DNA of 64,000 bases from Parablautia sp. Marseille-Q6255 (GTDB lineage: Bacteria > Bacillota > Clostridia > Lachnospirales > Lachnospiraceae), in assembly GCF_951230155.1 (NCBI RefSeq), contig NZ_CATNVD010000017.1, positions 1 to 64,000 of the forward strand. Reading direction: 5' to 3'. Numbering within the stretch: position 1 is the first letter of the stretch; each line of letters opens with the position of its first letter. The notes under the pieces are model-generated. The model saw only the letters and a program-made list of their open reading frames with translations, searched no databases and had not been told where the DNA came from. Below are positions 53,103 through 63,984 of this stretch, piece by piece. Position numbers and translations under genes: made by a program.

Positions 53103-54788
53103 ATGGGATTCAAAACAGACATCGAAATCGCACAGGAAACTACAATGTCTCCGATTACGGAGATCGCAGCAAAGGCTGGCATTGATCCGAAGTATCTGGA
53201 GCAGTACGGAAATTATAAGGCAAAGATCGACTACAATCTTCTGAAAGAAACAGATAAGAAGGACGGAAAGCTCATCCTTGTCACAGCGATCAACCCGACT
53301 CCGGCAGGAGAAGGAAAGACAACGACGACAGTTGGTCTGGCTGACGGACTGCAGAAGCTGGGCAAGAACGTTATGGTAGCGCTTCGTGAGCCGTCCCTCG
53401 GACCGGTATTTGGCGTAAAGGGCGGAGCAGCAGGCGGCGGATACGCACAGGTCGTTCCGATGGAAGATATCAACCTCCACTTTACCGGTGACTTCCATGC
53501 GATCGGCGCAGCAAACAACCTGCTTGCAGCAATGCTTGACAACCACATCTACCAGGGCAATGCACTGAACATCGACCCGAGAAAGATCACATGGAGAAGA
53601 TGTGTGGATATGAACGACCGTCAGCTGCGTTTCGTTGTAGACGGACTTGGCGGAAAGACAAACGGCATGCCGAGAGAGGATGGCTATGATATCACAGTAG
53701 CATCCGAGATCATGGCAGTTCTGTGTCTGGCAAGCGACATCACAGACCTGAAGAAACGTCTGGCAAGAATCATTGTTGGTTATACATACGGAAAAGCTTC
53801 TGAGCAGAAGCCGGTAACAGCAGGCGATCTGCATGCAGAGGGCGCTATGTGCGCACTGCTCAAGGACGCTCTGAAGCCGAACCTTGTACAGACACTGGAG
53901 CACGTTCCGGCGATCGTACACGGCGGACCGTTCGCAAATATCGCACACGGATGTAACTCCGTAATCGCAACAAAGATGGCGTTAAAGCTTGGTGATTATG
54001 CGATCACAGAGGCAGGCTTCGGCGCAGACCTCGGAGCTGAGAAGTTCCTTGACATCAAGTGCCGTATGGCAGGACTGAAGCCGAATGCAGTCGTGATCGT
54101 AGCTACGGTACGTGCGCTGAAATACAACGGAGGCGTTCCGAAGGCTGACCTGAACAACGAGAACCTTGAGGCTCTGGAAAAGGGACTTCCGAACCTGCTC
54201 AAGCATGTAAGCAATATCAGAAACGTATACAAACTGCCGTGCGTAGTAGCGATCAACGCATTCCCGACCGATACAAAGGCAGAGCTTGACCTCGTAGAGA
54301 GCAAGTGTAAAGAGCTCGGTGTAAACGTAGCACTGTCCGAGGTATGGGCAAAGGGCGGCGAAGGCGGCATCAAGCTTGCAGAAGAAGTGATCCGTCTCGT
54401 AGAGGAGCCGAACGACTTCACATACAGCTATGAGCTGGAGGGAAGCATCGAGGATAAGCTCAACCAGATCGTACAGAAGATCTACGGCGGCAAGAGAGTT
54501 GTCCTGACAGCAAACGCACAGAAGCAGGCAAAAGAGCTCGAGGCTCTCGGCTACGGCAACTGCCCGATCTGCGTGGCTAAGACACAGTACTCCCTGACAG
54601 ACGACCAGACGAAGCTCGGCGCGCCGACAGACTTCGAGGTAACGGTACGTAACCTCAAGATCTCCGCAGGTGCAGGCTTTATCGTAGCGCTTACCGGTGA
54701 GATCATGACAATGCCGGGTCTGCCGAAGGTACCGGCTGCAGAGAGAATCGACGTAGACGAGACAGGAAAGATCTCCGGGCTGTTCTAA
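53103..54788 (+). CDS. fhs: formate-tetrahydrofolate ligase
   Basis: The 561-residue protein has the P loop [10 protein letters not shown] (residues 66-75), [17 protein letters not shown], and [20 protein letters not shown]. It makes 10-formyl-THF from formate and ATP, the entry to the methyl branch. Codon use is strongly biased as for acsA. AGGAGGG precedes the ATG. Confidence 0.97.
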
Positions 54789-54808
54789 ATTTCTTTGCAG
54801 AAAACGAT

Positions 54809-54855
54809 ACTGTGGAAAGCGTGCAGCTGATACGCTGCTGCAGGCTTTTCACAGT
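54809..54855 (+). terminator. hairpin between fhs and fchA
   Basis: ACTGTGGAAAGC pairs with GCTTTTCACAGT, inner GCAG with CTGC, then GAAAAAAGTTTT. It may be a partial terminator. Confidence 0.65.
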
Positions 54856-54921
54856 GAAAAAAGTTTTGTAAAACAGATATTCAGGAATATCCGTGACAGG
54901 TAGATTAGGAGGTAGATAGCG

Positions 54922-55551
54922 ATGGGTTTTTCAACAGTACCATGTAATGAATTTGTAGAAGTGCTCGCGTCTAAGGCTCCGGTTCCAGGCGGCGGTGGTG
55001 CATCTGCGCTTGTAGGCGCAGTTGGAACAGCTCTTGGAAACATGGTCGGAAGCCTCACAGTAGGAAAGAAAAAATATGCTGATGTAGAGGCTGAGATGTA
55101 TGAGCTCAAGGCAAAATGCGACAAGCTGCAGGCAGAGCTCCTTGCGCTTGTAGAGAAGGATGCGGAGGTATTCGAACCGCTTGCAAAAGCATACGGTATG
55201 CCGCGTGCCACAGAGGAAGAAAAGGCAGAAAAAGCGCGCGTGATGGAGATCGTCCTGAAAGATGCGTGTGCAGTGCCGATGGAGATCATGGAGAAATGCT
55301 GTGAGGCAATTGAACTGATCAGAGAATTTGCTGCAAAGGGTTCTGCACTGGCGATCAGCGATGCAGGCGTGGGCGCAGCGTTCTGCAAGGCCGCATTAAA
55401 GGGAGCAAGCCTGAACGTATACATCAATACGAAGTCTATGGCAAACAAAGAGTACGCAGCAGAGCTGAATGCAAAGGCTGACGCAATGCTTGAGAAATAT
55501 CCGCCGATGGCAGATGAGATTTTTGACAGCGTACTGGCACGCCTGAAATAA
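54922..55551 (+). CDS. fchA: methenyl-THF cyclohydrolase, cyclodeaminase family
   Basis: The 209-residue protein is an FTCD C-terminal (cyclodeaminase) domain: PCNEFVEVLASKAPVPGGGGASAL, AVGTALGNMVGSLTVGKKKY, and SDAGVGAAFCKAAL. In acetogens it converts methenyl-THF with the next gene folD covering methylene-THF dehydrogenase. It follows fhs after the hairpin. Confidence 0.9.
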   Translation: MGFSTVPCNEFVEVLASKAPVPGGGGASALVGAVGTALGNMVGSLTVGKKKYADVEAEMYELKAKCDKLQAELLALVEKDAEVFEPLAKAYGMPRATEEEKAEKARVMEIVLKDACAVPMEIMEKCCEAIELIREFAAKGSALAISDAGVGAAFCKAALKGASLNVYINTKSMANKEYAAELNAKADAMLEKYPPMADEIFDSVLARLK

Positions 55552-55608
55552 GGTCTGTAAAGCAGGCAATTAAATTATACGAAGCGAATAGCAGAAAAGG
55601 AGCACAAA

Positions 55609-56463
55609 ATGGCAAAGCAGTTACTTGGTAAAGAGGTTACGGCTGCCCTCAACGAGAGAATTAAAGCGAAAGTAGCCGAACTGGAAGCAAAGGGTGTAAA
55701 GCCGACACTTGGCATTATCCGTGTCGGAGAAAATGAGAGCGATATTTCCTACGAGAGAGGTGCAACAAAGCGCTGCGAAACACTTGGCGTAGCATGTGAG
55801 AAGATCCTTCTTCCGGCTGACGTATCTCAGGAAGAGCTTTTGAAGGTGATCGACGATGTAAATAAGAATGACGCGATCCACGGCGTTCTTCTGTTCCGTC
55901 CGCTTCCGAAGCACCTGAATCAGTCTGTGATCGAGAACGCGCTGGATCCGGCAAAGGATGTTGACTGTATGACAGATGGTTCCATGTCTGGTGTATTTAC
56001 AGGAAAAGCTATCGGCTATCCGCCGTGCACACCTCAGGCATGTATGGAGATCCTGGATCATTACGGGATCGACTGCACAGGCAAAAAAGCAGTTGTGATC
56101 GGACGAAGCCTTGTCGTAGGTAAGCCGGCAGCCATGATGCTGATCAAGAAGAATGCGACTGTTACTGTATGTCATACAAAGACAGTTGATATGCCAAGCG
56201 TTGCAAAAGAGGCAGATATCATCATCGTAGCAGCAGGACGCGCAGGTGTTGTAGGCGCAGAGTATGTAAAACCGGGACAGGTTGTCATCGATGTAGGTAT
56301 CAACGTAAATGCAGAAGGCAAGCTTTGCGGCGATGTTGACTACGCAGCAGTGGAGCCGATCGTAGAGGCGATCACTCCGGTACCGGGCGGCGTAGGAAGC
56401 GTAACGACTTCTGTGCTCGTAAGCCACGTAGTAGAAGCTGCTGCAAAGAAGGCAGGTATCTGA
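55609..56463 (+). CDS. folD: bifunctional methylene-THF dehydrogenase/cyclohydrolase
   Basis: The 284-residue protein has NESDISYERGATKRCETLG with the catalytic Tyr and Lys, PLPKHLNQSVIENALDP, KDVDCMTDG, VVIGRSLVVGKPAAMML and PVPGGVGSVTTSVL. It produces methylene-THF for MetF. With fchA also present, its cyclohydrolase activity may be redundant. Confidence 0.96.
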   Translation: MAKQLLGKEVTAALNERIKAKVAELEAKGVKPTLGIIRVGENESDISYERGATKRCETLGVACEKILLPADVSQEELLKVIDDVNKNDAIHGVLLFRPLPKHLNQSVIENALDPAKDVDCMTDGSMSGVFTGKAIGYPPCTPQACMEILDHYGIDCTGKKAVVIGRSLVVGKPAAMMLIKKNATVTVCHTKTVDMPSVAKEADIIIVAAGRAGVVGAEYVKPGQVVIDVGINVNAEGKLCGDVDYAAVEPIVEAITPVPGGVGSVTTSVLVSHVVEAAAKKAGI

Positions 56464-56590: not shown

Positions 56591-58324
56591 TTAATCGACT
56601 GCATCTGAAAAATCCCGGTCCATACACGGGGAAAAGGAAGAATGCAACGTTCCGTTTTGTATGGAGATTACAATGCGTTTTTCCCATGCCGGATCTGTGA
56701 GAGGAAAGTCACTGCGGTAATGTCCTCCACGACTTTCTTTTCGCTGCGACATGGCAAGAGCAAGAGCTTCTGACAGAGTCAGTGCATGCTCCGCACAAAG
56801 TGCAGCTTTTAGAACACTCTCCTGCGAAGAAAACAAATATTTCCAGGGAAAGAATTTCTGACGCAGTGTTTGGATTTCCTGCCTCACAAAGTCAAGGTCG
56901 GATTGATTTCTTTGGACATTGCAGTATTTCCACATGAGATCTTTTACTTTCAGGGTGATGGCCTCTGGAGAAAGAAGATTTTCAGAAGCAATAGTATGGT
57001 CCGAGCGGTAAGTTCTGTGAAGCTGTGTTTGTAATTCGCTTTCAGATAAGGAATAAATGGAGGTCTGACTTGCATATGCAGCTGCAGATATAGCAGCCAG
57101 AGTTCCAAATACAAGGCAGCTTCCAGAAGCATTTCCACCGAGCCGGTCAGCACCGTGAATACCGCCGGCACATTCACCGCATGCGAATAGACCGGGAATG
57201 GTGCTCTGGCAGGTGTGGTCGACAAAGATTCCGCCATTAGCGGCATGAAAAAACGGTGCGATTTTGATCGTGTCTTTTGAGAGGGTTATATCAAATGTTT
57301 CGTGTAACCAGCTTATATAATCCCTTACATAGCTTCGCGGATCAAGAAGAATTTCCGGCCGGTAACAAATCTCTACTCCGTTATCACAGCTTTTTAAAGC
57401 AGCATCGAAAAGAGCAAGATCAAACTCTCCAGTTTTGTCTGCCGTCGTAAAAGGACCATGGAGCGCCCGCTTCTTCAGACAATGGCCCATTTCTTCATCG
57501 GAAGAGAAATACTGACGCAGTACATTTGTCTGGCTGGAGTCGAACAGTCCGCTGCAATAATCAAGACTGCCCTCCCGGAATACAATTTTATATCCCGGAG
57601 AGATAAAGCCGGGGATAAATTGATTAAATTCCAGATTAATTAAGGAAGCACCTGCTTTTAATGCTAATGCCTGACCATCCCCGCATACGTCAGGACTGTT
57701 AAGATTATGTTTATAAAGTCCTCCGAAACCACCGGTAGCAAGGATCACGGATTTGGCTGTGATGGCTTCATATGTCCTTGTGTTTTTCCGGTAGAAGCAG
57801 GCGCCGCAGATTGCTCCTGATGATTGCTGTAACAGGGCGATCAGTTCAGTATCCTCTGCGAGCGTGATGTTTGGGTGGGCTTCTATACGAGCGCGCACGG
57901 AGGTACGGATCTGCTTCCAGTCCTTCCAGAAATATAAGTCATGTGCATGTGTTCCGAAACAGGGAAGCTTGGGCTCCGGTAACTTTTCAAAAGCTATGCC
58001 CATTCGTTTCAGGTAAGAAATACAGGAACGGATGTTGCGGATGTAATACTGGTTCATCCAGGTATCATTCATGCGGGCACTGCAGGCGAGGATGTCTTCC
58101 AGAAAAACGGTTTCGTCATTCTCATCTATAGTTGCCTGGCAATGGATGGTATCCATCAGTCCGTAAAAGCTTGAGCCGGAGCAAAGCTGTGTTTTGGTTA
58201 TCAGCAGTACGCGCACACCGGCGTCAGCGGCGCGGAATGCGGCTGTGATCCCGGCAAGCCCGCAGCCAATTACGAGGACATCAAATGTTTCTTTTTTTCT
58301 TTTTACCGGAAGTACATCGTACAT
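56591..58324 (-). CDS. FAD-dependent fumarate-reductase/aspartate-oxidase-like flavoprotein
   Basis: The 577-residue protein has the FAD motif VLVIGCGLAGITAA (residues about 16-29), ILATGGFGGLYKHN, and HAANGGIFVDHT with GLFACGECAGGIHGADRLGGNA, typical of the SdhA/FrdA/NadB/AprA superfamily. No signal peptide, heme or iron-sulfur motifs, so it is soluble. The oxidised or reduced substrate is unknown. It is divergent to the peptide transporter and 25 bases behind the FadR-type gene, which suggests shared control and a small catabolic pathway. Confidence 0.8.
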   Translation of the reverse strand: MYDVLPVKRKKETFDVLVIGCGLAGITAAFRAADAGVRVLLITKTQLCSGSSFYGLMDTIHCQATIDENDETVFLEDILACSARMNDTWMNQYYIRNIRSCISYLKRMGIAFEKLPEPKLPCFGTHAHDLYFWKDWKQIRTSVRARIEAHPNITLAEDTELIALLQQSSGAICGACFYRKNTRTYEAITAKSVILATGGFGGLYKHNLNSPDVCGDGQALALKAGASLINLEFNQFIPGFISPGYKIVFREGSLDYCSGLFDSSQTNVLRQYFSSDEEMGHCLKKRALHGPFTTADKTGEFDLALFDAALKSCDNGVEICYRPEILLDPRSYVRDYISWLHETFDITLSKDTIKIAPFFHAANGGIFVDHTCQSTIPGLFACGECAGGIHGADRLGGNASGSCLVFGTLAAISAAAYASQTSIYSLSESELQTQLHRTYRSDHTIASENLLSPEAITLKVKDLMWKYCNVQRNQSDLDFVRQEIQTLRQKFFPWKYLFSSQESVLKAALCAEHALTLSEALALAMSQRKESRGGHYRSDFPLTDPAWEKRIVISIQNGTLHSSFSPCMDRDFSDAVD

Positions 58325-58348: not shown

Positions 58349-59071
58349 TTATTTTTTATCGTAATCGTAATTAAAATGATAATACATGGCATCATGAAAA
58401 GCAGAGCGGTCATGTGCAAGCAGCGCTTCATAAATCCGTTTATGTTTGTCTATTGTAATATTCAGGTGGCTATGTGTGCTTTTCATTTTGTAGGTTTCAT
58501 CGTACGCCCAGAAAAAGTCGATAATGGAGGTCATCAGACGATTTTGAACGTGAGAGAAGAGCGTGCGGTGAAAGGATGCATCCGCTTTAGCAAAAGCAAC
58601 GCCAAAAGAGGACATTGTTTTTGCCTTTGCCTGTGATTTCCCTTTTTTCTCCATTGTGTCAACGAGAATTGCAAGCTCTGCAATATCTTCCTGTGTGATA
58701 CTGTCGAAGGCATGATCCATGAAACCGATCTCAAGAATGCGCCGCAGCTCTTCGATATATTCTTCTAAATGAGGATCGCGGTAAGCAGAGAGCTGACTGA
58801 CCAGAGTGGACATGAAAAAGTCCATATTGCAATCACGGATAACAATGCCGACGCCCGGCCTGGATCGCACGAGTCCCGTAATCTCGAGTGCTTTGATAGA
58901 TTCCCGAAGGACATTTCGGCTGACGCCGAGCGATTCACACAGCTCCATTTCTGTAGGAAGCTTATCCCCGGGCTGAAGATTATTTCGGAAAATATATTCT
59001 TTGATCTCATCGTAAACACGAATATATAATTTTTCAGATTTCAGATTGTGAAGACCAGAAGTAGTTGTCAT
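58349..59071 (-). CDS. GntR-family regulator, FadR subgroup
   Basis: The 240-residue protein has an N-terminal winged helix (LYIRVYDEIKEYIF, LPTEMELCESLGVSRNVLRESIKALEITGLVRSR) and a C-terminal FCD helical domain with the metal/ligand residues (FMDHAF ... HRTLFSH ... DKHKRIYEALLAHD). AAGGAGGAG sets the ATG at 59071; the 57 codons upstream in frame cover the promoter and are rejected. Two identical operators flank its promoter and that of the transporter. Confidence 0.88.
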   Translation of the reverse strand: MTTTSGLHNLKSEKLYIRVYDEIKEYIFRNNLQPGDKLPTEMELCESLGVSRNVLRESIKALEITGLVRSRPGVGIVIRDCNMDFFMSTLVSQLSAYRDPHLEEYIEELRRILEIGFMDHAFDSITQEDIAELAILVDTMEKKGKSQAKAKTMSSFGVAFAKADASFHRTLFSHVQNRLMTSIIDFFWAYDETYKMKSTHSHLNITIDKHKRIYEALLAHDRSAFHDAMYYHFNYDYDKK

Positions 59072-59102: not shown

Positions 59103-59120
59103 TTGTAGTACAAAGTACAA
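59103..59120. promoter_or_regulatory. FadR-type operator 1
   Basis: TTGTAGTACAAAGTACAA, imperfect palindrome with TTGTA/TACAA ends, just downstream of the regulator's own predicted start. Confidence 0.75.
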
Positions 59121-59230: not shown

Positions 59231-59259
59231 TTGACATAACAAAAAAACTATGTTATTTT
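59231..59259 (+). promoter_or_regulatory. promoter of the peptide-transporter operon
   Basis: TTGACA-17-TATTTT; start about 59266, followed by operator 2. Confidence 0.65.
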
Positions 59260-59288: not shown

Positions 59289-59306
59289 TTGTAGTACAAA
59301 GTACAA
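59289..59306. promoter_or_regulatory. FadR-type operator 2
   Basis: An exact copy of the 18 bases at 59103-59120, same orientation, about 25 bases downstream of the transporter promoter start and just before the ribosome site AAAAAGGAGG. Confidence 0.75.
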
Positions 59307-59327
59307 ATTAAAAAAGGAGGACAAAGT

Positions 59328-60995
59328 ATGAAACTCAAAAAAATCACAAGTTTCCTGTGTGCAGCTGCTATGGCAGCGGGGATGCTGTTGGGGAATGGTA
59401 CAGCAGTAATGGCAGAAGAAAAAGCAGTCAGCTGTCAGGAACTGGGTACGCCGCTTGCAGATGTACGTGTGCGTCAGGCACTTGCTTATGCGATTGATCT
59501 GGACGCGATCGTAGATTCTTTGTTTGACGGAAAAGCAGAGAAGGCGATCAGCTTTACGGCGCCGGGTGACTGGCTTAATGCAGAGCTTCCGGTTTATTCC
59601 TACGATCCGGAAAAAGCAAAGGAGCTTTTGAAGGAAGCGGACTGGCCGTCTGATTACACACTGGATGTTGTATATTACTACGATGATCAGCAGACCGTGG
59701 ATTTAATGACGATCATCGGACAGTATTGGAGTGAGGTAGGGGTAAAGGCACAGTTCAGAAAACTGGAAGGGGATCTTGCGGCGCAGCTTTGGGTAGCTCC
59801 GGAGGATAAGGAAAATGGACCGTCGGCGGTGAAATGGGATCTGGCATATGCGGCAGTAGCAGCACTTACAGAGAGTGAGTTTTATAACCGGTTTGCATCA
59901 ACGGCAACGAATAATTCTTCCGTCCCGCTTCAGGAAGGACTGGATGAGCTGATTGCAGCATCGAACTCTACGATGGATACAGATGAGCAGAAAGAAGCCT
60001 TTAAGCAGATACAGGCTTATGTCGCAGAGAATGAGCTGGCGATGCCGCTGTATCATCAGGTATGCTTTATCTACAACAGTGATGATCTCGACATGGCAGG
60101 AAGTAAAGTCGGAAATGACCAGTTCTCTTATGAGAAAAATATTCTCGACTGGAATATCAACCGTGAGGATAAGACATTGTATACAAATGGAGGTCCGCAG
60201 GAATTCTTCTGGTATCCGATGGTAAATCCGGGATATATGATCAATACAGAGCTGATTTTTGACAAGCTGATCAATGCCGACAGTTCATTGAACCCAACGG
60301 AAGGCATGCTGGCAGAAAGCTACAGTGTCAGTGAGGATTCCTTATCCATCGAGTTTGTACTAAGAGATGGACTGACCTGGCATGACGGCGAGCCGCTTAC
60401 AGCAGAAGATGTGAAGTTTACGATCGAGCTGATGTTAAAGACTCCGGGTGCAAATGCAGTGGCGACAGAGGTGGTTCAGGCGATCACAGGCGCACAGGAC
60501 TATCTGGATGGAAAGAGCGAAGATCTGGCAGGTGTCGTAGTAGACGGAAATAAAGTAACGGTTCAGTTTGATAAGATTGCAGCAAATGCACTGCAGGTAT
60601 TCTCTCAGTGGCCGATTCTTCCGAAACACTGTCTTGAGAATGCCGATCCGGCAACCTTACAGCAGGATCAGTTCTGGCAGAAGCCAATTGGCTCAGGTCC
60701 GTTTATGGTAGATGAGGTTGTCCTGAATAATTATGCCACATTGAAGAGATGGGATGGATACTATAAACAGGGCAGCGGAAATATTGAAAAAATTTATATG
60801 TTTGCAAGCGGAGAAAATGATGCAAACCTGGTCAAAAATGCAAGTGCAGGAAAGATCGATTATGCATGGAGCAAATCTACAGATGATGCAAAGGCAATAG
60901 AAGAGCTGGAGAACATGAATGTAGAGGTGGCAAATATCCGGTATACGAGATGCTTCTATATCAATCAGTTCCCGCATGAGGCAAATATCAAGTAA
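59328..60995 (+). CDS. Opp/Dpp-type peptide-binding protein, circularly permuted
   Basis: The 555-residue protein has a signal peptide (cleavage near VMAEE, no lipobox) and belongs to SBP family 5, but in swapped order. Residues about 40-275 hold what is normally the C-terminal half: PLADVRVRQALAYAID, YDPEKAKELLKEADWP, and the usual ending NELAMPLYHQVCFIYN ... NILDWNI. Residues about 276-555 hold what is normally the mature N-terminal half: LAESYSVSEDSLSIEFVLRDG, TWHDGEPLTAEDVKF, ILPKHCLE, PIGSGPFMVDE, ending INQFPHEANIK. That end would lead directly into PLADVRVRQ in a standard protein. Total length is normal, so nothing seems lost. Confidence 0.85.
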   Translation: MKLKKITSFLCAAAMAAGMLLGNGTAVMAEEKAVSCQELGTPLADVRVRQALAYAIDLDAIVDSLFDGKAEKAISFTAPGDWLNAELPVYSYDPEKAKELLKEADWPSDYTLDVVYYYDDQQTVDLMTIIGQYWSEVGVKAQFRKLEGDLAAQLWVAPEDKENGPSAVKWDLAYAAVAALTESEFYNRFASTATNNSSVPLQEGLDELIAASNSTMDTDEQKEAFKQIQAYVAENELAMPLYHQVCFIYNSDDLDMAGSKVGNDQFSYEKNILDWNINREDKTLYTNGGPQEFFWYPMVNPGYMINTELIFDKLINADSSLNPTEGMLAESYSVSEDSLSIEFVLRDGLTWHDGEPLTAEDVKFTIELMLKTPGANAVATEVVQAITGAQDYLDGKSEDLAGVVVDGNKVTVQFDKIAANALQVFSQWPILPKHCLENADPATLQQDQFWQKPIGSGPFMVDEVVLNNYATLKRWDGYYKQGSGNIEKIYMFASGENDANLVKNASAGKIDYAWSKSTDDAKAIEELENMNVEVANIRYTRCFYINQFPHEANIK

Positions 60996-61006
60996 TGAAT
61001 TGTATT

Positions 61007-61056
61007 GAGGTGCTGCAAAATCCACGGAAAGAAGTTTTTGCAGCACCTCGTTTTTT
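61007..61056 (+). terminator. terminator between binding protein and permease genes
   Basis: GAGGTGCTGCAAAA pairs with TTTTTGCAGCACCTC, then six T. Partial readthrough would give more binding protein than permease. Confidence 0.82.
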
Positions 61057-61067
61057 AGGAGGCAGGT

Positions 61068-62027
61068 ATGACGAATTATGTAATTAGAAAGATTCTGTCC
61101 TTAATCCCTATGATGCTTGTTTTAAGCTTTTTAATCTATCTGGGGATTGAACTGATGCCAGGAGATGCAGTGGATTTTCTGATTCCGCCAGATGCGCTGT
61201 CCACGATGTCAGAAACGCAGCTTAATGAGATGAGAGAATCGCTTGGATTGAATGATCCTTTTATGGTCCGCTATGTTAAATGGCTTGGCGGAGTTCTTCA
61301 TGGAGATTTTGGCTATTCTCTGCAAAGCGGCGTTCCGGTTGCAACACTGATGAAAAATCATCTTCCGGCAACAATCGAGCTGACAGTGACAGCGCTTATT
61401 TTTTCTTCTATTTTTGGCATTTTGTTCGGCGTCATCAGTGCATTGAAAAAGGGCAGCATTCTGGATCAGATGTTAAGTGTAGTCGGTATGATCGGCGTGG
61501 CGATTCCTCAGTTTTTGCTTGGTTTGATCTGTATCAACGCATTTGCTCTGCATTTGAATCTTCTTCCGGTTGGAGGACGGATGGCTTCCATGGATCAGAA
61601 TTTCTTTGAAAGGCTTCCGTATCTGATCATGCCGGCGCTTGTACTCGGATTTTCTCTTACCTCAGGTGTGATGCGCTATGCAAGAGGAAGTATGCTGGAC
61701 TCGATGGGAAAGGATTATATGAAGACAGCGCGCGCAAAAGGAATCCCTGAGTGGAGGCTGAATCTGCTACACGGTTTGAGGGCAGCACTGACACCTGTTG
61801 TTGTGCTGATCGGATTCCGTCTTCCGATGCTCATCGGAGGAGCGGTGGTGATCGAAGAGGTGTTTCAGTGGCCGGGGATCGGGGCCCTGTTTGTGGATTC
61901 TGTCCGGGCGCAGAATACGCCGCTTGTAATGATGATCGGATTTTTCAGCGTACTGCTGGTGCTGATTTCAAGTATTATTGTGGATATTGTAACAGCGGCA
62001 CTTGATCCGCGTATTAAGTTGAGTTAG
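61068..62027 (+). CDS. peptide/nickel-type ABC permease, DppB family
   Basis: The 319-residue protein has about six membrane helices, the family N-terminus (YVIRKILSLIPMMLVLSFLIYL) and the EAA-like loop ARAKGIPEWRL. GGAGG precedes the ATG. It pairs with the permease encoded next. Confidence 0.92.
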   Translation: MTNYVIRKILSLIPMMLVLSFLIYLGIELMPGDAVDFLIPPDALSTMSETQLNEMRESLGLNDPFMVRYVKWLGGVLHGDFGYSLQSGVPVATLMKNHLPATIELTVTALIFSSIFGILFGVISALKKGSILDQMLSVVGMIGVAIPQFLLGLICINAFALHLNLLPVGGRMASMDQNFFERLPYLIMPALVLGFSLTSGVMRYARGSMLDSMGKDYMKTARAKGIPEWRLNLLHGLRAALTPVVVLIGFRLPMLIGGAVVIEEVFQWPGIGALFVDSVRAQNTPLVMMIGFFSVLLVLISSIIVDIVTAALDPRIKLS

Positions 62028-62038
62028 GGAGGCGCCAG

Positions 62039-62947
62039 ATGAGTTCATTAGATCGGAAAATGGATAAAATCCTGGCCAGAGAGGAAGCCGGGCAGATAAA
62101 AAAGCGCATGAAAAACAGAGCTCTGCGTAAGATGTTTGCCAACCGGCTTTCAGTGGCAGGAATTATAATTTTTGTTGTTATTTTATTTATGTGCTGTGCA
62201 GCGCCTCTGTTCACGCCGTATGATGCAACGAAGGTAGATCTGCGAAGCATCCTGCAACCGCCGTCAGCGGAACATATTTTAGGAACAGACAAGATTGGGC
62301 GTGACATCTGGGCAAGGATTTTGTTTGGAGGAAGAGTTTCCATTGCAGTCGGACTGGGAAGTGCGCTGATAGCGACAGTACTCGGTGTATCACTTGGTAC
62401 GATTGCGGGCTATAAGGGGGGATGGCTGGATGGCATCGTAATGAAGGTATCAGAGATCATGATGGCATTCCCACAGATGATCCTCGTATTGATTTTAGTA
62501 ACGATTACAGGACAGAGCCTGTGGAACCTGATTTTTATTTTTTCTCTTACCGGCTGGCCTTCGATGTATCGTATGGCACGTTCTCAGATGCTTTCTCTTC
62601 GGGAACAGGAATATGTACAGGCACTGAAAGCATTTGGCATCGGCGGAATGAGGATTGCGTTTAAGCATATTCTTCCGAATGCGATAGGTCCCATTTTTGT
62701 CAATATCACACTTTCTACTGCTATGTTTATCCTTCAGGAGGCAGCACTTAGCTTTCTTGGCCTTGGCGTACCGCTTGAGGTAGCCACATGGGGGAATATT
62801 TTGAATGTGGCACAGGATTTGACGATTTTGAAGCAGGCATGGTGGATCTGGCTTCCGACCGGTATTGCAGTAACGCTTTTTGTTATCAGCATAAACTTTA
62901 TTGGTGATGGCCTGCGTGATGCAACAGATCCTTCTCAGATAGGATAA
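62039..62947 (+). CDS. peptide/nickel-type ABC permease, DppC family
   Basis: The 302-residue protein has a long cytoplasmic N-terminus (about 35 charged residues), six helices, HILGTDKIGRDIWARILFGGR and the coupling loop EYVQALKAFGIGGMRIAFKHILPN. GGGAGG precedes the ATG. Confidence 0.92.
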   Translation: MSSLDRKMDKILAREEAGQIKKRMKNRALRKMFANRLSVAGIIIFVVILFMCCAAPLFTPYDATKVDLRSILQPPSAEHILGTDKIGRDIWARILFGGRVSIAVGLGSALIATVLGVSLGTIAGYKGGWLDGIVMKVSEIMMAFPQMILVLILVTITGQSLWNLIFIFSLTGWPSMYRMARSQMLSLREQEYVQALKAFGIGGMRIAFKHILPNAIGPIFVNITLSTAMFILQEAALSFLGLGVPLEVATWGNILNVAQDLTILKQAWWIWLPTGIAVTLFVISINFIGDGLRDATDPSQIG

Positions 62948-62958
62948 GAGGTGATGGA

Positions 62959-63984
62959 ATGGAACGAAATCAGGATGTAGTTGTGAAGGTGGAGGACCTT
63001 CATGTGAATTTTTATAACAATGACCGCTGCAACAAGGTGCTGCGAGGGGTTTCTTTTGAGCTGAAAAAGGGAAAGATCATGTGTATTGTCGGAGAGAGCG
63101 GCTGTGGAAAATCAGTTACAGCTAATTCTATCATGGGACTTCTGCCGGATCTGTCAAGGATAGAAAAAGGGAGCATCACCTTCCATTATCAGGGCGAGGA
63201 TATCCGTATCGACAGGCTGAAACGAAAAGGGAAAGAAATGCGAAAGCTGCGCGGAGAGGGAATGGCAATGATCTTTCAGGATCCAATGACAGCATTAAAT
63301 CCTGTATTTACCGTGGGCTATCAGATTAATGAGGCGTTGCTGTATCACAACGGTGCTTCTTCGCGTAAGGATGCAACGAAAAAGTCGATACAGCTTCTGA
63401 AAGAAATGGGGATCCCCCTTCCCAAGCAGCGGGTAAAGGAATATCCGCATCAGTTTTCAGGTGGAATGAGCCAGAGGGCAATGATCGCAATGGCGATGAG
63501 CTGTCGGCCAAAAGTACTGATCGCAGATGAGCCGACAACGGCGCTGGATGTAACGATACAGGCACAGATCTTCGAGCTGATGCTGGATCTGAAAGAAACT
63601 AATGATACGGCTATTTTACTGATCACACATGATATGGGAGTGGTCGCAGAGCTGGCGGATGATGTGGCGGTAATGTATATGGGGAATATCGTTGAGAGCG
63701 GGGATGCAAGGGCAGTCCTGACGCGGCCTTCGCATCCTTATACGAAAGCGCTTCTGGATTCCATACCAGTACTGGGCAGAGGGAGGGAACAGAAGCTGGA
63801 ACCGATCAAAGGCTCTACGCCGGATCCTTACAACCGTCCGGCAGGCTGTCAATTTGCTCCCAGGTGCGCATATGCCACCCCGGAATGTGAGACCGGTATG
63901 CCGCCTGAAAGCATGGTAGAAGAGGGGCATATGTGCAGGTGCTTCCATCATCTGAGAAAAAAGGAGGGAGAAGCGAATGACTGA
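62959..63984 (+). CDS. peptide/nickel-type ABC ATPase, DppD family
   Basis: The 341-residue protein has Walker [14 protein letters not shown]-loop [12 protein letters not shown], signature [15 protein letters not shown], Walker [13 protein letters not shown] and the C-terminal oligopeptide extension with a cysteine cluster ([15 protein letters not shown]), which in the family can hold an iron-sulfur cluster. It overlaps the next gene by eight bases. Confidence 0.94.

Follow-up and report, generated by a model that had tools for sequence, protein, structure and literature searches.

A probable natural circular permutation of an SBP_bac_5 solute-binding protein at the head of an Opp/Dpp-type importer operon

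Architecture of the permuted gene

The gene described here lies within the window, i.e. the whole stretch analysed, which comprises positions 1 to 64,000 of contig NZ_CATNVD010000017.1 (assembly GCF_951230155.1, Parablautia sp. Marseille-Q6255). It forms a single open frame on the plus strand (59328–60995, 555 amino acids) with an ATG start and no internal stop, and is preceded by a good ribosome-binding site, AGGAGG at 59315–59320, read from the sequence. The gene encodes a solute-binding protein (SBP) of the SBP_bac_5 family (cluster C) and stands at the head of an operon for an Opp/Dpp-type ATP-binding cassette (ABC) importer. Its parts follow each other in an unusual order:

59328–59447, plus strand: signal peptide and short linker, residues 1–40 (sequence)
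59448–60158, plus strand: standard C-terminal half, now first, residues 41–277, PF00496 from position 211, comprising lobe 2 (domain III) and the usual ending ILDWNI (profile, phmmer, BLASTP, fold comparison)
60159–60173, plus strand: junction of about five residues, 278–282, NREDK, between the former C-terminus and the former mature N-terminus (alignment with normal-order relatives)
60174–60971, plus strand: standard mature N-terminal half, now last, residues 283–548, PF00496 positions 4–207, comprising domains I and II and the strand that normally enters PLAD (profile, BLASTP)
60972–60995, plus strand: new C-terminal tail PHEANIK, residues 549–555, and stop, replacing a loop of the relatives (alignment)

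Swapped halves relative to the family profile

The match of the protein to Pfam SBP_bac_5 (PF00496) reaches 218.3 bits (cut-off 32.4) and is split into two stretches. Aligned alone, half 1 (59448–60161) covers profile positions 211–330 with 94.5 bits and half 2 (60162–60992) positions 4–207 with 130 bits. The break in the profile lies between positions 207 and 211, leaving only three positions uncovered between the halves. A phmmer search against the PDB gives the same swap: residues 41–247 of the window protein align with residues 274–481 of DppA (1dpe), and residues 303–480 with residues 25–206. An earlier reading of this DNA from its letters alone (the sequence-only reading) had held that the family landmarks stand in reverse order and that 555 residues is the length of a whole protein. 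The landmarks named are found at their places, the total length is similar to that of the relatives, and with swapped coordinates of the separately aligned halves the whole protein is not collinear with SBP_bac_5.

Nine relatives with the halves in standard order, termed sisters here (L046–L052, L059 and L060), are 44–52% identical to the window protein over each half (42% for the N-terminal half of L060), and two of them served as controls. Sister L060 aligns with 5isu in one collinear stretch (64–491 to 61–464), taken from a PDB search that gave no match at 1e-25 and 31 sequences at 1e-12. Sister L049 aligns with the Opp4A model in one stretch (94–559 to 68–545), whereas the window protein needs two. 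Since normal-order sisters match the same model and chain collinearly, the swap is not produced by the method. Standard order is also found in DppA, NikA, OppA and SatA, solved SBP_bac_5 proteins from which the window protein differs in this respect. By these alignments its first part corresponds to the second part of its relatives and vice versa at similar total length, as would be expected of a circular permutant. Because of the segment order, 211–330 followed by 4–207, the protein is filed as a permuted derivative of SBP_bac_5 and not as a member of standard topology.

The site of the join and the site of the cut can both be read by comparison with the sisters. In L060, signal peptide, lipobox and linker are followed by MYSNGG, and the chain runs through YVNKF, the loop NKKDGTKS and PLSDVRVRQ to IQNWTLK and the stop. 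In the permuted order, signal peptide and linker lead into PLADVRVRQ, and the chain runs through ILDWNI, NREDK and TLYTNGG to YINQFPHEANIK and the stop. A bridge of about five residues therefore connects the old ends, and both new ends fall into a single loop. At the position of the join the chain of the sisters ends (e.g. IQNWKIK before the stop), and on the other side it starts, behind leader and linker, with LYSNGG or a similar sequence. Among eight aligned permuted members Arg279, Asp281 and Thr283 at the join and Asn553-Ile554-Lys555 in the tail are invariant; the remaining join residues vary and the join is only partly conserved. The permuted protein of L016 ends in PHPQNAK. The sequence-only reading had placed the end exactly where a standard member enters PLADVRVRQ. 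The cut does fall there, but in the sisters eight loop residues separate the PL of PLAD from the strand with which the permuted protein ends (YINQF), and the cut is therefore assigned to the loop rather than to one exact residue.

Occurrence in independent genomes

One genome per species was scanned for 84,980 species, using six exact peptide patterns from the window protein. Among the 29 stretches matched, eight encode relatives, and all eight have the permuted order. Because the patterns derive from the permuted protein, the scan says little on normal-order relatives and the permuted count is a lower bound. Seven relatives match the window protein in one collinear stretch at 76–86% identity, and the eighth, L016, in two stretches of 69–73% identity separated by a frameshift. 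This frameshift, near residue 373 (L016:7149–7161, an uncultured Oscillospiraceae assembly), may be an assembly error or a sign of decay. Two relatives belong to isolate genomes, NZ_JH376426.1 (L013) and NZ_VULZ01000009.1 (L012), the two isolates being labelled [Clostridium] citroniae WAL-17108 and Porcincola intestinalis.

Samples taken around the window's genome gave a sparse picture. At 1e-30, the SBP is matched in 18 of 397 genomes of the same family: two permuted (its own and G416), seven with normal-order sisters and nine with a match of the N-terminal half only, to other binding proteins. At 1e-45, four of 392 genomes of the order sample match, two permuted (its own and G585) and two with sisters (G347, counted already, and G516). 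The class sample yields its own genome and sister G998 (2/391), the phylum sample its own and G1147 (2/299), the latter by a distant N-half match that is in normal order once both halves are read (L061). By their contig positions, G416 and L011 are one and the same record, as are G585 and L014, so that the permuted members number nine in total. The patchy distribution suggests horizontal transfer. Binding proteins from viral contigs, sampled to deepen the alignment, gave two loci, L062 (by eye) and L063, both in normal order; only L063 was used.

These records decide on misassembly across a tandem duplicate, which the sequence-only reading had named as the main alternative and by which the order would be artificial. 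The window's genome is a draft of 40 contigs, and the gene occurs in only one of 47 sampled genomes of the genus (1e-30), its own. However, the order recurs in eight independent records from other bacteria, among them two isolates, at 14–31% amino-acid divergence, and misassembly is rejected for the family as practically negligible.

Common ancestry of both halves and selection

BLASTP aligns the window protein with sister L049 at 46% identity over 274 residues and 51% over 236 residues. In trees of 19 rows the nine permuted rows form one clade, supported with 97/93 in the N-half, 99/96 in the C-half and 100/99 with both halves together. In trees of 35 rows, to which 16 more binding proteins were added, four of them encoded in the window's genome, the permuted clade adjoins the sisters for either half (100/99 and 100/100), and the two groups are set apart from the other SBPs (100/99 and 89/95). 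Permuted and sister loci are split in the same way by their permease and ATPase genes, in a tree rooted on the sisters by choice.

A chimaera, in which half genes of two different binding proteins were fused with the C-half first, would account for the order as well; the leader must derive from some gene, and no intermediate is known. Yet both halves are closest to the same relatives, namely the SBPs that head operons of this type, with the similar identities to L049 given above, and both half trees agree against 17 other SBPs, which renders a chimaera very unlikely. The sequence comparisons show that the swapped halves stem from one ancestral gene, the permuted SBP having been retained as head of the importer operon.

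An intact open frame is present in eight of the nine permuted members, and dN/dS, the ratio of nonsynonymous to synonymous substitution rates, ranges from 0.043 to 0.115 among permuted genes (13 of 28 pairs with computable dS). The SBP is followed by the importer genes B, C, D and F in 8/8 permuted relatives. A rearranged, non-functional remnant, to which the frameshift of L016 and the want of a clear lipobox in the window member and L012 could point, is hardly credible in view of these frames, ratios and operons. At the level of sequence, the permuted SBP is under purifying selection and constitutes a single clade in the sampled trees.

Taken together, a natural circular permutation of an SBP_bac_5 protein is assigned a probability of about 0.9. 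Several points weigh against it. Six of the eight permuted relatives are metagenome assemblies, and neither a duplicated nor a half-gene intermediate was found in the loci compared, a limited sample. With about 0.66 changes per column the permuted branch is a long one, and the sister group is weak (47/25) in the C-half tree of 35 rows. Tree warnings concern very long outgroup rows or long branches in both sets, and among the trees of 19 rows that of the N-half has an unsettled bootstrap. Of the 28 pairs, 15 have an infinite dS and 12 of the remaining 13 a dS of at least 1.3, i.e. saturated or nearly so. Finally, two AlphaFold models are low in confidence (pLDDT, the predicted local distance difference test, 40.6 and 50.9), and half 2 is barely covered by the fold comparison.

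Lobes, hinge and membrane anchor

The permuted protein would keep the usual two-lobed shape. The sequence-only reading had supposed that both lobes and the hinge involve both halves. Since fold comparison assigns half 1 mostly to lobe 2, the correspondence between halves and lobes is closer than that; the last strand of half 2 is nevertheless expected in lobe 2. A removal of one of the two hinge crossovers by the cut was considered and given up in view of the boundaries of domain III. In OppA, domain III presumably starts at about residue 271. In AliD it comprises residues 297–582 (PMC11192437). These boundaries suggest a cut about 10 residues inside domain III, and both hinge crossovers should remain.

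All nine sisters possess a lipobox, with a linker leading to the strand of domain I, and seven of the nine permuted members have a lipobox cysteine and a linker of 33–45 residues. In the window member (59328–59435) the hydrophobic stretch ends without a lipobox, the only candidate being AVSC (residues 33–36) after charged residues. L012 (L012:5992–6120) is the second permuted member without a clear lipobox. Judging from these leaders, both binding proteins may be set free or retained by other means. Leader and linker would sit on lobe 1 in normal members and now on lobe 2. A tentative and rather doubtful extension of this is that the permutation acts as a tethering switch: with the chain opened in lobe 2 and closed in lobe 1, lipid anchor and linker would shift from lobe 1 to lobe 2, and the protein might dock on, or swing over, the permease differently.

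Origin of the permutation

Circular permutation is a well-known phenomenon in proteins, for which two explanations are given, duplication on the one hand and fission and fusion on the other (PMC3320104). The mode proposed here is a tandem duplication with in-frame fusion, after which the outer halves would have been lost and the leader kept. Permutation by duplication had also been put forward by the sequence-only reading and is plausible, although no tandem or truncated form turned up in the compared loci. Alternatively, the ancestral gene may have split into half genes for lobe 2 and lobe 1 that were later fused in reverse order. This route is unlikely, as it requires a separate export signal for each half, and no extra SBP piece stands beside the SBP in the compared loci among the three to four matches kept per query.

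Relation to known permuted binding proteins

To our knowledge, the permuted glycine-betaine-binding proteins do not belong to SBP_bac_5. They are treated in the CPSARST paper, which also mentions molybdate-binding proteins, and were found by structure comparison at less than 24% sequence identity (PMC2395249). Another case is TpMglB-2 (Tp0684), a type I (cluster B) protein that binds glucose and is circularly permuted, and thus likewise a natural permutation of a binding protein of the ABC-importer type (PMC4990184). It differs in its fold class, and according to the paper its permuted part is only 13% identical to EcMglB, for which reason its origin is unsure; for both halves of the window protein, in contrast, an operon of the same kind supplies an unpermuted relative at about 50% identity. 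According to its authors, homologues of TpMglB-2 are probably tethered and the permuted topology is possibly an adaptation to anchoring (PMC4990184). If the tethering switch were true, the window protein would represent the second independent anchoring-linked permuted binding protein after TpMglB-2 and define a permuted subclass of cluster C.

The sequence-only reading knew of no described permuted SBP_bac_5 protein, and none was found in the literature on permuted proteins, a search to which subscription papers are mostly external. By word search of the available text, PMC3320104 lacks the phrase 'binding protein', PMC11757225 and PMC2096629 lack binding-protein terms and PMC2861598 lacks permutation terms. 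Many circular permutations have been recognised by structure between distant proteins. The present one is an unusually clear case because unpermuted relatives persist in the same operon context. Owing to the same kind of operon and identities of about 50%, permuted and unpermuted forms can be measured side by side, which makes testable both the origin of the permutation and the importance of chain order and anchor position for the binding protein of an ABC importer. For annotation, it should be noted that a collinear profile search presents the permuted gene of the window as two partial matches.

Operon and regulatory elements

The SBP gene is surrounded by the following features:

56591–58324, minus strand: flavin adenine dinucleotide (FAD)-dependent oxidoreductase of the fumarate reductase / L-aspartate oxidase kind, a frequent neighbour (profile searches)
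58349–59071, minus strand: divergent GntR/FCD regulator, ATG at 59071 by eye, 58349–59065 scanned; best NCBIfam model NanR, below cut-off
59103–59120, no strand: copy 1 of the 18-mer TTGTAGTACAAAGTACAA, predicted operator of the GntR regulator (motif scan)
59231–59259, plus strand: promoter-like site TTGACA-17-TATTTT (promoter scan)
59289–59306, no strand: copy 2 of the 18-mer, between promoter-like site and SBP start codon (motif scan)
61007–61056, plus strand: terminator-like hairpin (stem 61007–61020 / 61035–61049) and T-run between SBP and permease genes (read from the sequence)
61068–62027, plus strand: OppB/DppB-type permease (profile searches)
62039–62947, plus strand: OppC/DppC-type permease (profile searches)
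62959–63984, plus strand: OppD/DppD-type ATPase (profile searches)
L044:5978–7003: OppF/DppF-type ATPase, same contig, mostly past the window end
L044:7000–7923: N-acetylneuraminate-lyase-like aldolase, same contig, after F and past the window end

The same block of SBP, B, C, D and F is found in all nine sisters. In their stretches of about 19 kb, an aldolase of the dihydrodipicolinate synthase (DHDPS) family is matched in 8/9, at 30–35% identity or, in L060, at 48%, and the FAD gene in 7/9; these matches are not always adjacent, and in L060 both genes directly follow F. Among the permuted relatives the aldolase follows F in seven of eight, and in L014 it was not found within 2.0 kb after F. 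The regulator is divergent in six permuted relatives and downstream in L012, while the contig of L014 ends before its place. In L015 (4831–5533) it is matched by two pieces that overlap, pointing to a possible frameshift in this metagenome assembly.

The divergent GntR regulator may control the permuted SBP operon, and the 18-mer is probably its operator. One exact copy precedes the SBP in L010, L011, L013 and L015; L009 and L016 carry it with two mismatches and L012 only with four, against a chance level of 0.6 matches within four mismatches per 64 kb (five shuffles). It is not present in L014, where 329 bases upstream of the SBP are available, nor within two mismatches in any of the nine sister loci, of which L046 has one site with three. 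Promoter-like sites are not in excess in the region (5 observed, 6.2 expected from shuffles). The hairpin has a long loop, which the loop limit of the promoter scan leaves out. Downstream of the SBP stop, each of the nine permuted loci has a predicted hairpin; the sequences differ, and the count is without a shuffle control. A hairpin at this place often allows an excess of binding protein over permease.

The designation as peptide-binding, used in the sequence-only reading, is doubtful. Asp408 of DppA holds the amino group of the peptide (PMC8566422), and phmmer aligns it with Ala173 of the window protein, in a single, weak alignment of low identity. Aldolase and FCD regulator point instead to an organic or sugar acid. 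The permuted protein would hand its ligand, most probably not a peptide but a small organic or sugar acid, to the co-encoded permease. Sialic acid is not named, because the aldolase stays below the curated N-acetylneuraminate lyase cut-off of 281, with 226.4 bits in the window operon and 274 in sister L060.

Further upstream (53103–56463), adjoining genes for a formate-tetrahydrofolate ligase and cyclodeaminase-like and FolD-like proteins, named by reading their translations, make up a one-carbon folate cluster.
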